Source: Acidihalobacter aeolianus
GTDB taxonomy: Bacteria > Pseudomonadota > Gammaproteobacteria > DSM-5130 > Acidihalobacteraceae
DNA length: 64,000 nucleotides
NCBI RefSeq assembly: GCF_001753165.1
Contig: NZ_CP017448.1
Location: forward strand, 948,462-1,012,461
Direction: 5' to 3'
The position numbers and the translations under genes were made by a program. Below the pieces are notes generated by a model. That model searched no databases and was not told where the DNA came from. It worked only from the letters and a program-made list of their open reading frames with translations. Each line of letters opens with the position of its first letter. Position 1 is the stretch's first letter. Below, piece after piece: positions 5,473 to 62,210 of this stretch.

Positions 5473-6524
5473 ACTGCTTATCCCCTGTTCCGGCCAGCCG
5501 GCGCCCCGGCCGCCGGCTGGCTGCGTTGCTCACCCTGCTAGCCGTCTGTCTGCCCGCAGCCCGGGCCGCCGACGACACATTCGCGCACCGTCCCCAGGTG
5601 CAGGCCTTCATCCAGCAAATGGTCAAGCAGGACAAGTTCGACAAGGCCTATCTGGAACGCCTGTTCGCCGACGCGCAGCCGCTGCCGGCGGTGATCTCGG
5701 CCATGCAGCGCCCGGCCGAGTCGCTGCCCTGGTACCGTTACCGCCCGATCTTCCTGACCGAACAGCGTATCCGCGAAGGCGTCGTTTTCTGGCGCAAGCA
5801 CCAGGCGGCACTGGCACGCGCGCAGCGCGCCTACGGCGTGCCGCCGCAGGTGATCACGGCGATCATCGGCGTGGAAAGCTATTACGGTCGGCACATGGGC
5901 ACCTTCCCGGTCTTCTCGACCCTTGCCACGCTGGGTTTCGACTACCCGCCGCGGGCCGACTTCTTCCGCCAGCAACTGGCGCAGTTCCTGCTGCTGGCGC
6001 GCGACGAGGGCATCGATCCGCTCAAGCCCAAGGGGTCCTACGCCGGGGCGATGGGGCAGGGCCAGTTCATGCCGGGCAGCTACCGGGCCTACGCGGTGGA
6101 TTTCGACGGTAACGGCGGTCGCGACCTGTGGAACGATCCGGTCGACGCCATCGGCAGTATTGGCAACTATCTGGCCAGGCACGGCTGGCGTGCCGACGGT
6201 TTCGTCGCAGCCCGTGCCCGGGTCGGCGGCACGCCCAAGGCCGCGCTGGACGCCGGCGTGCGCCCGAGCCTGTCGTCCAAGGCGCTGGCCGCTGCCGGCG
6301 TGCGCCCGGCGCATGCCCTGCCGAAGGATCATCGCTACGCACTGATCAGCCTGCAGACCCGGACCGATCCGGAGTACTGGGTGACCGGGCAGAACTTTTA
6401 CGTGATCACCCGCTACAACGCGAGCGCCCTCTATGCGATGGCGGTATATCAGCTCAGCGAGGCGATTCGCGACGCCTATGAACACGCGAAGGCGACGGAG
6501 GTCGCCAACCGGCACGGCTCATGA
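5469..6524 (+). CDS. mltB: Lytic murein transglycosylase B
   Basis: Cleaves the MurNAc-GlcNAc bond in the sacculus with formation of 1,6-anhydroMurNAc. The product of 351 residues begins with a basic stretch and a hydrophobic signal (about 12-33, ending AARA) without a clear lipobox, so it may be a soluble periplasmic form. The catalytic Glu is E136 in the IIGVESYYGRHMG motif of the MltB/SltB family, followed by GAMGQGQFMPGSY and DLWNDPVDAIGSIGNYL. The start is uncertain: TTG at 5469 overlaps the mrdB stop and is the only upstream start-like codon that keeps the whole signal sequence. The stop overlaps the rlpA ATG by 4 bp. Confidence 0.94.
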   Translation: MNCLSPVPASRRPGRRLAALLTLLAVCLPAARAADDTFAHRPQVQAFIQQMVKQDKFDKAYLERLFADAQPLPAVISAMQRPAESLPWYRYRPIFLTEQRIREGVVFWRKHQAALARAQRAYGVPPQVITAIIGVESYYGRHMGTFPVFSTLATLGFDYPPRADFFRQQLAQFLLLARDEGIDPLKPKGSYAGAMGQGQFMPGSYRAYAVDFDGNGGRDLWNDPVDAIGSIGNYLARHGWRADGFVAARARVGGTPKAALDAGVRPSLSSKALAAAGVRPAHALPKDHRYALISLQTRTDPEYWVTGQNFYVITRYNASALYAMAVYQLSEAIRDAYEHAKATEVANRHGS

Positions 6525-57426: not shown

Positions 57427-57643
57427 ATCTGTCTCCGATCAATAGATAAGCCAGCGACATACCGAATTGCCGTCCATTCTAGAGGTTGGGCAAGGCACGC
57501 TAGTGTTGTGTTGCAGCAGATAGGGACGCATCAACTGAGGCTGAAGGCATCAGTGATGCATCGTTCAAGAAGACTGCAATTCACTTATGACGAATTTCGG
57601 GATGGCGGGGATGGTATAACGAATCCGCTATCTGCGCGCATCA

Positions 57644-57679
57644 CCATGAATCAGCAGCCATTAGCCTGCTGATTCATGG
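57644..57679. repeat. Perfect 14-bp inverted repeat at a gene end
   Basis: CCATGAATCAGCAG (57644-57657) and its exact complement CTGCTGATTCATGG (57666-57679) flank an 8-nt loop. It straddles the stop codon of the minus-strand 99-residue gene. No uridine tract follows on the minus strand. Confidence 0.85.
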
Positions 57680-57960
57680 CCTGCTTCCGGCCATGGCATT
57701 CTGTCACGCCACTCTTCTATCAAGTGACGTCCCATTTCTGTTAGCCGATAGACCGGGTTTCCAAATATATATTCGCGGGTTGTAAAGCCTTCAGAGAGCA
57801 GATTGGACATCACCACTTCATGCTCTTCAGGACTCATCCCATGCAGGCGTTGCTCCTCATAAATAGCGCCGCTAGGAGTGCCTTCGTTGTCCCGTGTTGA
57901 AATGCTCTTCAGCGTAATCAGCAAGGTTTTCTGATCGAGATTACCTGAATAGGGCGTCAT
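57661..57960 (-). CDS. Small winged-helix-like protein of unknown function
   Basis: A 99-residue soluble protein. The arrangement of helix, helix and a beta-wing (HEVVMSNLLSEGFTTREYIFGNPVYRLTEMGRHLIEEWRDRM) resembles small MarR/PadR-like winged-helix domains, where TEMGR HLI is like the wing and last helix. DNA binding is suggested but not shown. ATG 57960 with GAGG 8 nt upstream. It is low in GC compared with neighbours and near a MITE-like element. Confidence 0.55.
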   Translation of the reverse strand: MTPYSGNLDQKTLLITLKSISTRDNEGTPSGAIYEEQRLHGMSPEEHEVVMSNLLSEGFTTREYIFGNPVYRLTEMGRHLIEEWRDRMPWPEAGHESAG

Positions 57961-57988
57961 CTCCTGATCCTCTTGTTGCTGGTTGTTA

Positions 57989-58251
57989 GTGCCTGTTCAC
58001 ACTATGGGGTGGAGTGCTGCCGGAGCCACTTTCCGCGACTCGCCAGGCGCTGTGAGCGCGGTGTGGCCGGCCGCATGAGCGAGCGGCAACACCGCGAGAC
58101 GCGGAAAGCGGCCCGGCCCTGCAGGGCGGCTGAAAAACCGCCACCGGTGTTGCTCGTCGCTGATTTGGAATCGCACAAACTGTGATCCTCGCGCCTTGAT
58201 TGGCGGTTTTCCAGTCACTAAAGCGCCCCACCGCATAGTGTGGACAGGCCC
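57989..58251. mobile_element. MITE-like element, 263 bp, imperfect terminal inverted repeats
   Basis: Ends: left GTGCCTGTTCACACTATGGG (from 57989) and the complement of the right end, GGGCCTGTCCACACTATGCG (up to 58251). Aligned over about 31 positions from the flanking TTAG, 27 match. Both ends are bordered by TA (57987-57988 and 58252-58253), consistent with a TA target duplication. The inside is GC-rich and full of short complementary segments (for example CTTTCCGCG with CGCGGAAAG; CGGTGT with ACACCG), with no transposase. This fits a non-autonomous miniature inverted-repeat element mobilised by an IS5/IS630-like transposase; the family cannot be fixed by eye. Confidence 0.7.
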
Positions 58252-58735
58252 TAAGACATGGACCAACACTGGTGCCGAGTGCATGATGAACATGTCCTAA
58301 TGTTTTGTAGCGTAACTACCGGCATGCAATCGAGCCGATGTCTCAATCAGCTTTCCGAAATAGGCCGTTGATACCGCCCCCCGCCCGGATTGTCGAAGTC
58401 ACGTGTCAAATCGGGAAAGGGGTGGAGGAGGAGTCCATAAAGAGATATACCGGCCATTCGCGGTCTGATGTTGATATCAGCAATATATATCATGGCCTGT
58501 TCTCTGCATCGCCGATGCATCCTCGTAGCTTTGCCAGAACGTGCTGGCATGGGCTCGGTTGACAGGACACCATCCGAGCAGATTCCGTCTGGACGGCGAA
58601 CGCGTGCTATGTAACTAGGCGGCGTGTGCGGTCGAGGTCTGTTCGTAGTACGTATTCAGGCAAGATTGAATACCGATTCCGGCTTTGTCAAAACAGTGAT
58701 TGATTATTTGTATTTAGCAAATTCACAAGTTTCAT
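58252..58735. other. Gene-poor, increasingly AT-rich spacer
   Basis: About 480 bp with no gene I can support. A 74-codon plus-strand frame at 58338-58562 has neither a good RBS nor recognisable sequence. The second half (58660-58740) is strongly AT-rich. It may hold remnants of an acquired segment. Confidence 0.4.
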
Positions 58736-58981
58736 TCACGTTTCTTTCTCTAAACCTACTACAGCTCTATAGAGATAGTTGCCACCATCATCAGATTCTG
58801 TATCTACTGACATAACAACTAGAGTTACACCATTTCTATCAATTTTTTGTCCCACAAATGGTATTACCCCATCACCATATTCCTCGGTGCTTAGAATCAT
58901 CGACGAGGGCATCTGTGAAACCGGGTCCACTGTAAACAACTCGGAAGCAAGCGGGGTGGGTTTTAGTACTACGATAGACAT
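58736..58981 (-). CDS. Small orphan protein
   Basis: Not recognised. An 81-residue, mostly beta-like soluble protein (SIVVLKPTPLASELFTVDP, DRNGVTLVVMSVDTES). ATG 58981 has GGAG with a 7-8 nt spacer upstream, which makes translation plausible. The gene is clearly AT-rich for this chromosome, so it is probably horizontally acquired. Confidence 0.5.
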   Translation of the reverse strand: MSIVVLKPTPLASELFTVDPVSQMPSSMILSTEEYGDGVIPFVGQKIDRNGVTLVVMSVDTESDDGGNYLYRAVVGLEKET

Positions 58982-59162
58982 AAATACTCCACATGATTGA
59001 ACAACATGACCAAAATATTTGTTGCCATCTCCAGATCTGTTGATTTGCCTATTCAGTAGTAACCAGTCAGTCAGATGTGGTGACCGAGGTGACAGCTGTT
59101 GGCCGAAACCGTCGAACAAAACCAACTCACTGTCATCTGCTTCCGCTCAGCAGCAACCACGA

Positions 59163-60725: not shown

Positions 60726-62210
60726 TTAACGGTGACGGATGTATTCGTAGATGCGCAGATAATGTTCTCCCGGGTGATTCCACGAGAAGTCGCAACGCAT
60801 GCCGTTCTCGATCAGTTCGCGGAAATCGTCGGGGTGGTGCTGCCAGAGTCCGATGGCGCGTCCCAAGGCTGTTTCCAAGGCCAGTTCATCGGTCTGGTGG
60901 AAGACGTAGCCGTTGCGCTCGGCGGGCGGCTTGTCGGAGAAGTCGCGGTCGAACACCGTGTCAGCAAGTCCGCCCACGGCGCGTACCACGGGCACGGTGC
61001 CGTAGCGCAGGCCGATCATCTGGGTGAGGCCGCAGGGCTCGTACATGCTGGGCACGACGATGATGTCCGCGCCGGCGTAGATCAGATGCGCCAGTTCCTC
61101 GTTGTAGCCGATTTCGAGATGGCAGTCCGGGTTGTCGTTGAGTTCGGCCTTGATGTGCAGGAACTGGCCGTTGATGCTGGATTCGGGGCTCGATCCGAGC
61201 AGTACGAACTGCGCGCCGTTGGCCAGCGAGTAGTAGATCGCGTGGCGGATCAGATGCACGCCCTTCTGCTGGTCGAGACGTCCGACGTAGGCGACGATGG
61301 GTTTGTAGTTGTCCGCCAGCCATAGGCGCTCGCGCAGCGCGCGCTTGTCGTCGTATTTGTGCTCCAGCGTGGCAATGCCGTAATGCGCCGGAAGATGGGG
61401 GTCGCTTTCCGGGTTCCACATTTCGTAATCCAGGCCATTGAGCACGCCGCCAAATTTCGCCTGATGCATATGCAGCAGATGTCCCAGGCCGAAACCCTGT
61501 TCGGTGTGGCGTACCTCCCAGGCATGCCGTGGCGATACCGTGGTGATGAAATTCGAGTAGACGATCGCACCCTTCATGAAATTGATCGCGGTACGGTTGA
61601 AATCGTCGCCCATGCGCGCCAAATCGAAATAATATTCCGGACGTCCGAGCCCGGTTGCCCACAGCACGTTTGCGCCGGCAATGCCCTGGTGTTTGAAATT
61701 GTGAATCGTATGGCACACGCGTTGATTCGCCATGCCGTGGTGGGCGTAGATTTCGTACAGCAGCGGGGCGACGAGCGCGGTCTGCCAGTCGTGCGAGTGG
61801 ATCACGTCGGGGCGTTTGCCGCTCTTGAGCATGAATTCCATCGCCGCCTTGGTGAAAAAGGCGAAGCGCATGTGCTCGTCGGGAAACCCGTAAAAGGTGC
61901 CGCGGTTGAAGAAGTTTTCTTCGGAGTGCGGCTCGATGAAAAAGCACTTGCGGCCGTGAACGTAACCGAAAAACACCGTGCAGTGGATGAAGCGGTTGAA
62001 CCAGGTGACCCAGAGGTCTTCATAGACCACCTGCAGGCCCCAGATCTGGTCGTAGCGCATGCAGTCGTATTTGGGCAGGATGATTTCGACCGCATTGCCG
62101 CGTATTTCCAGTTCGCGGCTCAGTCCGAAGACCACGTCGCCGAGACCGCCTACCTTGGCGACTGGGGCGCATTCCGATGCAACCATCACGATGTACATGA
62201 CTCGGTCCAA
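60726..62210 (-). CDS. glgA: Glycogen synthase (GT5)
   Basis: A 494-residue glycosyltransferase with the ADP-glucose motif KVGGLGDVV at 19-27, HSHDWQTALVAPLLY, and the C-terminal catalytic text AGADIIVVPSMYEPCGLTQMIGLRYGTVPVVRAVGG with E (YEPCGL). It elongates alpha-1,4-glucan. The enzyme is flanked by two GH57 genes on the same strand; glgC, glgB and glgP of the usual kind are not seen in the window. ATG at 62210 (a second Met at 62198). Confidence 0.96.
   Translation of the reverse strand: MDRVMYIVMVASECAPVAKVGGLGDVVFGLSRELEIRGNAVEIILPKYDCMRYDQIWGLQVVYEDLWVTWFNRFIHCTVFFGYVHGRKCFFIEPHSEENFFNRGTFYGFPDEHMRFAFFTKAAMEFMLKSGKRPDVIHSHDWQTALVAPLLYEIYAHHGMANQRVCHTIHNFKHQGIAGANVLWATGLGRPEYYFDLARMGDDFNRTAINFMKGAIVYSNFITTVSPRHAWEVRHTEQGFGLGHLLHMHQAKFGGVLNGLDYEMWNPESDPHLPAHYGIATLEHKYDDKRALRERLWLADNYKPIVAYVGRLDQQKGVHLIRHAIYYSLANGAQFVLLGSSPESSINGQFLHIKAELNDNPDCHLEIGYNEELAHLIYAGADIIVVPSMYEPCGLTQMIGLRYGTVPVVRAVGGLADTVFDRDFSDKPPAERNGYVFHQTDELALETALGRAIGLWQHHPDDFRELIENGMRCDFSWNHPGEHYLRIYEYIRHR

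Follow-up and report, generated by a model that had tools for sequence, protein, structure and literature searches.

The 263-bp element analysed here, lying in a window of 64,000 nt (the whole stretch of Acidihalobacter aeolianus DNA that was analysed), is a real miniature inverted-repeat element (MITE), the interior of which consists of a ~59-nt hairpin module present twice in inverted orientation. Comparative alignment showed that this predicted two-hairpin core, with covarying predicted helices, recurs in elements of many genomes, some of which carry different ends. MITEs are usually seen as decayed IS copies that are defined by their ends; here, it is the interior that recurs, partly on different ends. 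The recurrence of the core, often attached to different ends, was unexpected, and the core common to such elements is the noteworthy part of the analysis, beyond the MITE and its related IS. The features of the element are as follows (window coordinates).

57989–58251, no strand: whole MITE, 263 bp (sequence, end match, genome copies, alignment)
57987–57988, no strand: TA, presumed target duplication, left copy (sequence; TA at the left of 7/7 cut copies)
58252–58253, no strand: TA, presumed target duplication, right copy (sequence)
57989–58018, plus strand: left terminal inverted repeat, the 16 outermost bp being of IS5 type and one mismatch away from GGGCCTGTTCACACTA
58222–58251, minus strand: right terminal inverted repeat (end match)
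58025–58112, plus strand: first large hairpin, arms 58025–58043 and 58094–58112 (inverted-repeat search, RNA fold)
58039–58096, plus strand: first module, GAGCG sense on the plus strand (model R1, 60.0 bits)
58130–58214, minus strand: second large hairpin, arms 58130–58143 and 58201–58214 (inverted-repeat search, RNA fold)
58143–58202, minus strand: second module, inverted relative to the first (model R1, 44.7 bits)

The element is shorter than 500 bp, possesses terminal inverted repeats and lacks a transposase, as is usual for MITEs. The original prediction, which was made from the letters of the window, had placed the ends correctly and noted the TA on both sides (57987–57988 and 58252–58253), but its identity of about 27 of 31 positions was too high: a recount gave 25/31 identical positions at the coordinates 57989 and 58251, and 28/33 with the flanking TTA and TAA included (57986–58018 versus 58222–58254). 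Arms matching at 26/31 or more within 400 bp occur at a single place in the 64-kb window, which is the element itself, and nowhere in eight dinucleotide shuffles, and arms of 27/31 were found neither in the window nor in five shuffles. The absence of an internal transposase was also correctly called, as only two ORFs of 80 aa or more overlap the element (81 and 98 aa, minus strand), neither of which is transposase-sized. The self-complementary interior described there proved far more stable than shuffles when both strands were folded as RNA (z −9.3 and −9.5), and its DNA fold gave z −8.3. Two further suggestions, a transcript end and an origin-like structure, were not supported: a simple scan of positions 57600–58900 detected no intrinsic-terminator-like site, and nothing in the analysis points to an origin. 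A terminator or promoter was rejected on the same interval, in which no site of either kind was found and shuffles give about one of each. A known structured RNA was likewise rejected, with no Rfam 15 match at gathering over the window and none up to E 1 at 57900–58350. The ORFs flanking the element (57661–57960 and 58736–59125, minus strand) match no NCBIfam model, the former having no Pfam match either, and positions 60726–62210 encode the glycogen synthase GlgA.

Dispersed copies, insertion sites and the probable IS5-type partner

The dispersed copies anticipated by the original prediction were found when the own genome (G000; 3.53 Mb, 2 contigs) was searched with the window element, which gave 22 matches, counted as 16 places. 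Nine of these, comprising the window copy and eight others at 73–89% identity, are near full length, and seven are shorter. Alignment of 15 places gave ends reading TA-GGGCCTGTTCACACTATG...CATAGTGTGAACAGGCCC-TA, and several of the aligned copies are internal deletions. The insertion test covered seven excised copies of the nine that are near full length (L003, which has no TA on its left, is among the two left out). All seven have TA at the end of the left flank (7/7), and the right flank starts with TA in four and with TG in three. The joined flanks of the seven copies were searched for empty sites in four relatives, in which those of three copies align across the join, two of the three having been read base by base; the window copy and three others gave no such alignment in these relatives. 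For copy 3199107, the joined flanks align across the join in G002 (86%), G001 (82%) and G004 (76%). The empty site in G002 reads CTTA/GAG (the slash marks the join), with one TA, and corresponds to the filled site CTTA-element-TAGAG; the same join reads TTA/GAG in G001 and CTTA/CAG in G004. For copy 611467, the flanks align in G002 (77%), where the alignment is gapped at the join, and in G001 (78%), where the join reads CCTA/ATA. Copy 2361198 is represented by an alignment in G001 (69%; alignment only, bases unread). Target duplication together with an empty site was therefore found for other copies of the family, and the uninterrupted one-TA sites in the relatives indicate that family members transposed into YTAR sites once these relatives had diverged. 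The dispersed family inserts at YTAR sites and duplicates TA.

Several side observations concern individual copies. At L005:1762–2421 (minus strand; G000:C1 near 3199368), the TAG stop codon of a 219-aa ORF combines the TA of the target with the outermost base of the element, and the same ORF site in G002, which is empty, reads TAA; insertion at a YTAR site can thus leave a neighbouring ORF whole. Two end-to-end remnants of ~37 and 44 bp, G000:C1:229370–229402 (L027) and 2066651–2066694 (L018), consist of the two terminal repeats, face to face and with hardly any interior. In two species (L069 in G002 and L009 in G000), the same element was recognized by eye between the same flanks and was judged, also by eye, to be a shared old insertion. 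A module at G000:C1:940022–940080 (L386:1523–1581) was found by R1 (47.6 bits) and missed by BLAST with the window element.

The sequence GGGCCTGTTCACACTA also bounds an 808-bp element of the own genome, with both ends at this distance in four places (0–2 mismatches). The one 808-bp copy that was read (L045) possesses perfect 20-bp ends, including TTA and TAA. Its coding capacity lies in a pair of overlapping ORFs (135 and 132 aa), one corresponding to each half of the IS5-family model NF033580 (E 1e-27 and 1.6e-29), with both half-matches falling below the full-length cut-off of the model; the ORFs also match PF13340 and PF01609. We take this IS to belong to the IS427 group of IS5. Each end of the window MITE differs from the 16-bp IS end by one mismatch, and an IS sharing the outer 16 bp, which the original prediction had named as a confirming find, is thus present. 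Outside the own genome, IS ends resembling those of MITEs were seen in G126 only, where the IS5-type IS ends AGGGCGTGTTAACACTAATS and the local MITE ends AGGGCCTGTTAACACTATCC show 3–4 mismatches over 20; GTTAAC is common to the IS and MITE ends of G126, as is GTTCAC to those of the own genome. The two kinds of end differ at 2/16 positions in Nitrococcus. No IS was found near the ends that were sampled in G018, G025 and G172, and the IS5 loci of G025, G226 and G404 lack MITE ends. NF033580 was matched in 4/8 of the G genomes and in 3/12 of the genomes behind named loci. An autonomous parent IS carrying the module was considered and rejected, with no match in eight IS-bearing loci (seven distinct places). 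From the shared ends, we infer that an IS5-type transposase probably moves the MITE in trans. The original reading as a MITE that needs an IS elsewhere in the genome is borne out by the copies, the TA borders, the empty sites and the IS with the same outer 16 bp; the interior module common to many genomes was not visible to it.

Distribution and structure of the two-hairpin core

BLAST with the window element gave matches in 7 of 56 genomes, the own genome included; in G018, G019, G025 and G049, the interior was matched, and the right end was reached in G019 only. With the covariance model R1 at E ≤1e-4, modules were found in 53/274 genomes of the class and 67/299 genomes of the phylum, the own genome included in each, which places the core in about a fifth of the sampled genomes of both. 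At E up to 1, R1 detected 22 modules in G000, 4 in G001 and 13 in G002. A core-pattern scan of GTDB contigs returned at least 120 stretches; the titles among the matches listed are mostly of Gammaproteobacteria and include MAGs labelled Acidobacteria, Vicinamibacteria, Myxococcales, Bacteroidota, Zetaproteobacteria and Staskawiczbacteria, in which contamination is possible. In the contig labelled Staskawiczbacteria (L157, ~5515–5568), a module lies between inverted copies of GTTCGAATCCCGCGTCCC, which by eye resembles the 3' end of a tRNA gene. With one or two elements as the query, no match was obtained in 50,697 phage records or in 20,395 E. coli records, and 4 of 72,556 plasmid records matched over ~50 core bases only.

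R1 comprises 31 rows and 15 pairs, the rows being drawn from 35 diverse modules. As 27 of the 31 rows are from pattern-picked loci, and ~14 are stretches fixed by the pattern in both loops, the conservation of the core is partly selected. R1 was run on 100 loci (without L061, L062, L075, L264 and some others) and gave 150 matches in 99 loci, which include places present in more than one locus and correspond to 126 distinct rows, or 79 without near copies. The pattern loci L080–L199 were excluded from this run and from the counts of conservation, G·A and wobble pairs, end clusters, outer arms and module pairs. Neighbouring modules less than 200 bp apart form 42 distinct pairs, all of which are inverted in the same relative orientation (42/42), with a spacing of 107–109 bp in 35 of them. 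Recognized ends are present in 45 distinct elements, 36 of which have two modules, and 27 of these 36 are 264–274 bp long; with duplicates, the counts are 46 pairs and 50 elements.

Paired cells make up 83.9% of the R1 alignment, and 83.2% on the complementary strand; shuffles give 67.2%, and a slid alignment does not exceed 43.2%. Of the 15 pairs, 10 vary on both sides, including all five of helix 3, in which 98.1% of the cells are paired; none does so in helix 1. Among the 79 non-redundant modules, GGC, GAG, TGA.CGA and CAAC are conserved, and the helix positions are variable. Two adjacent facing positions carry G·A (67 of the 79 modules) and A·G (68 of 79), and a facing position further in is again G·A in 73. 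On the modelled fold, tandem G·A pairs can form between the conserved strings that count as "unpaired". Sheared G·A pairs in tandem are known to be stable in RNA as well as in DNA. Helix b is standard throughout in 30/79 modules and contains tandem G·A in the middle in 19 and at the start in 7. The outer arms are complementary within modules, where 37/78 reach 11/12, and hardly between modules (5/385). Single copies seem to decay neutrally.

The hairpins might act as RNA, being transcribed near genes, where they would protect, process or end messages and be retained for that use. The strong RNA folding of both strands and the presence of one GAGCG-sense module per strand in either insertion orientation would suit such a role, and ERIC is reported to affect mRNA stability, according to the accessible part of PMC2229807. 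The remaining helices, however, show no excess of G-U over A-C (13 vs 12), without wobble bias towards either strand, so there is no sign of selection for an RNA strand. In view of these counts and of the lack of a terminator-like site or an Rfam match, a function at the RNA level seems distinctly improbable. Alternatively, imperfect palindromes could undergo templated correction when they are replicated, which would yield the covariation without selection on structure. Long palindromes are liable to such correction, and outer arms that were rewritten and are still complementary would be its expected product. The same process would, however, make the internal loops complementary, whereas GAGCG facing TGAGCGA stays non-Watson–Crick and is among the most conserved parts of the module; we regard this explanation as the least plausible of those considered.

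Different ends and a probable explanation

On the same core, G018 bears ends of another kind, TAGAACCTATCTC, as does G025 with AGAGCCTGTCTGTGAATAA, and the ends in G019 and G049 are of the GGGCCTGTT kind; those around the cores of the pattern scan include GGGCCTGTTAACACTAATCC, GGGTCTGTTGACGTTTC, AGAACCGGTCTC and GGACCTGTCATCACTTAT. Clustering of 40 distinct end sequences gave ten clusters (one of 27, one of 5 and eight singletons), at least two of which (L008 and L226) are boundary artefacts. Since 27/40 distinct ends are of one related type, an exchange of ends is supported by a minority of the elements. In these, the ends may have been swapped for, or may be adapting to, those of the resident IS5-type transposase.

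The element could instead be an ordinary IS5 deletion derivative with a functionless palindromic filler, the interiors found elsewhere representing one element that spread horizontally while its ends drifted with the transposases. Its ends are indeed IS5-type, the commonest end type is common to most elements, and the usual description of MITEs is that of decayed IS copies (accessible text of PMC10969869); the equal rarity of G-U and A-C is also what neutral decay of single copies would produce. On the other hand, the module is missing from the IS at all eight IS-bearing loci (seven distinct places), and ends such as TAGAACCTATCTC and AGAGCCTGTCTGTGAATAA are far from GGGCCTGTTCACACTA. Drift alone would keep neither helices that vary on both sides in step around constant loop strings nor outer arms that are rewritten yet complementary. 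A mere deletion derivative is therefore judged rather unlikely. The recurrence with different ends, the covarying helices and the G·A strings argue for more than a decayed IS: what recurs has the look of a structured, portable core that is combined with IS5-type ends of several kinds.

The explanation that we consider highly probable is that of a MITE whose folded core is conserved and whose ends are IS5-type; it presumably moves in trans, and its core would be kept for spread or tolerance. In this scheme, an IS5-type transposase of the same genome would mobilise the MITE in trans, and the module, in the simplest case as a cruciform or a single strand that folds, would be retained as it aids the spread of the element or its toleration by the host. 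The terminal ends would be exchanged for, or adapted to, whichever IS5-type transposase resides in the host. A wider and more tentative proposal, which we hold to be possible rather than probable, is a superfamily, phylum-wide or perhaps wider, defined by a folded core of two G·A-held inverted modules rather than by its ends, in which the core repeatedly took new IS5-type ends and outlived each transposase, with ERIC perhaps as a distant single-module branch. If the core is functional, it would represent a step in MITE spread beyond end recognition, and R1 would offer one annotation model for a common repeat that is missing from Rfam 15.

Comparison with known repeat families

A literature search, including one with the module strings, found no description of the core among the papers covered, which comprise few subscription papers, and the string-bearing papers look mammalian. 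Such a core is not described in the accessible parts of PMC10969869, PMC3733652, PMC5896051 and PMC2229807. The GTAG- and CGTC-tagged REPs, as described in the available text, resemble the module as short palindromic repeats across several phyla, but are 20–40 bp long, tagged and without IS5-type ends (PMC3733652). Correia elements (NEMIS), also compared by description, are MITEs of 100–200 bp, and their transcripts fold and are cut by RNase III, according to the accessible part of PMC10969869.

ERIC (IRU, RU-1) is like the element in being an intergenic MITE of 127 bp with a long hairpin, as given in the available portion of PMC2229807, but differs in its single hairpin and other ends. In the one E. 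coli ERIC copy that was read, GAGTGA faces TGAGCGA, as in the module. Membership of ERIC, taken as a sequence or profile match, was not shown: R1 gave the E. coli ERIC copy only 6.3 bits (E 0.21 for 680 bases). BLAST with the ERIC copy gave short, chance-like matches in 2 of 185 genomes of the class. In a block test, the gap ranges of which were chosen with ERIC in view, 4/1000 shuffles and 2/992 window pieces were equally good. Kinship of the core with ERIC is only suggestive. Correia elements, for their part, duplicate TA.

The closest known system in ends and target, likened by description, is MITEPsy1 of Pseudomonas syringae, for which the available text reports ends close to those of the IS5-family ISPsy2 and a target of CTAG or YTAA (PMC3189936). 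In contrast to the 263-bp element and its TA duplication, MITEPsy1 is 100 nt long, with 18-nt ends and a 4-bp duplication. According to the same part of that report, it actively transposes, and similar sequences occur in P. stutzeri, Marinobacter and others.
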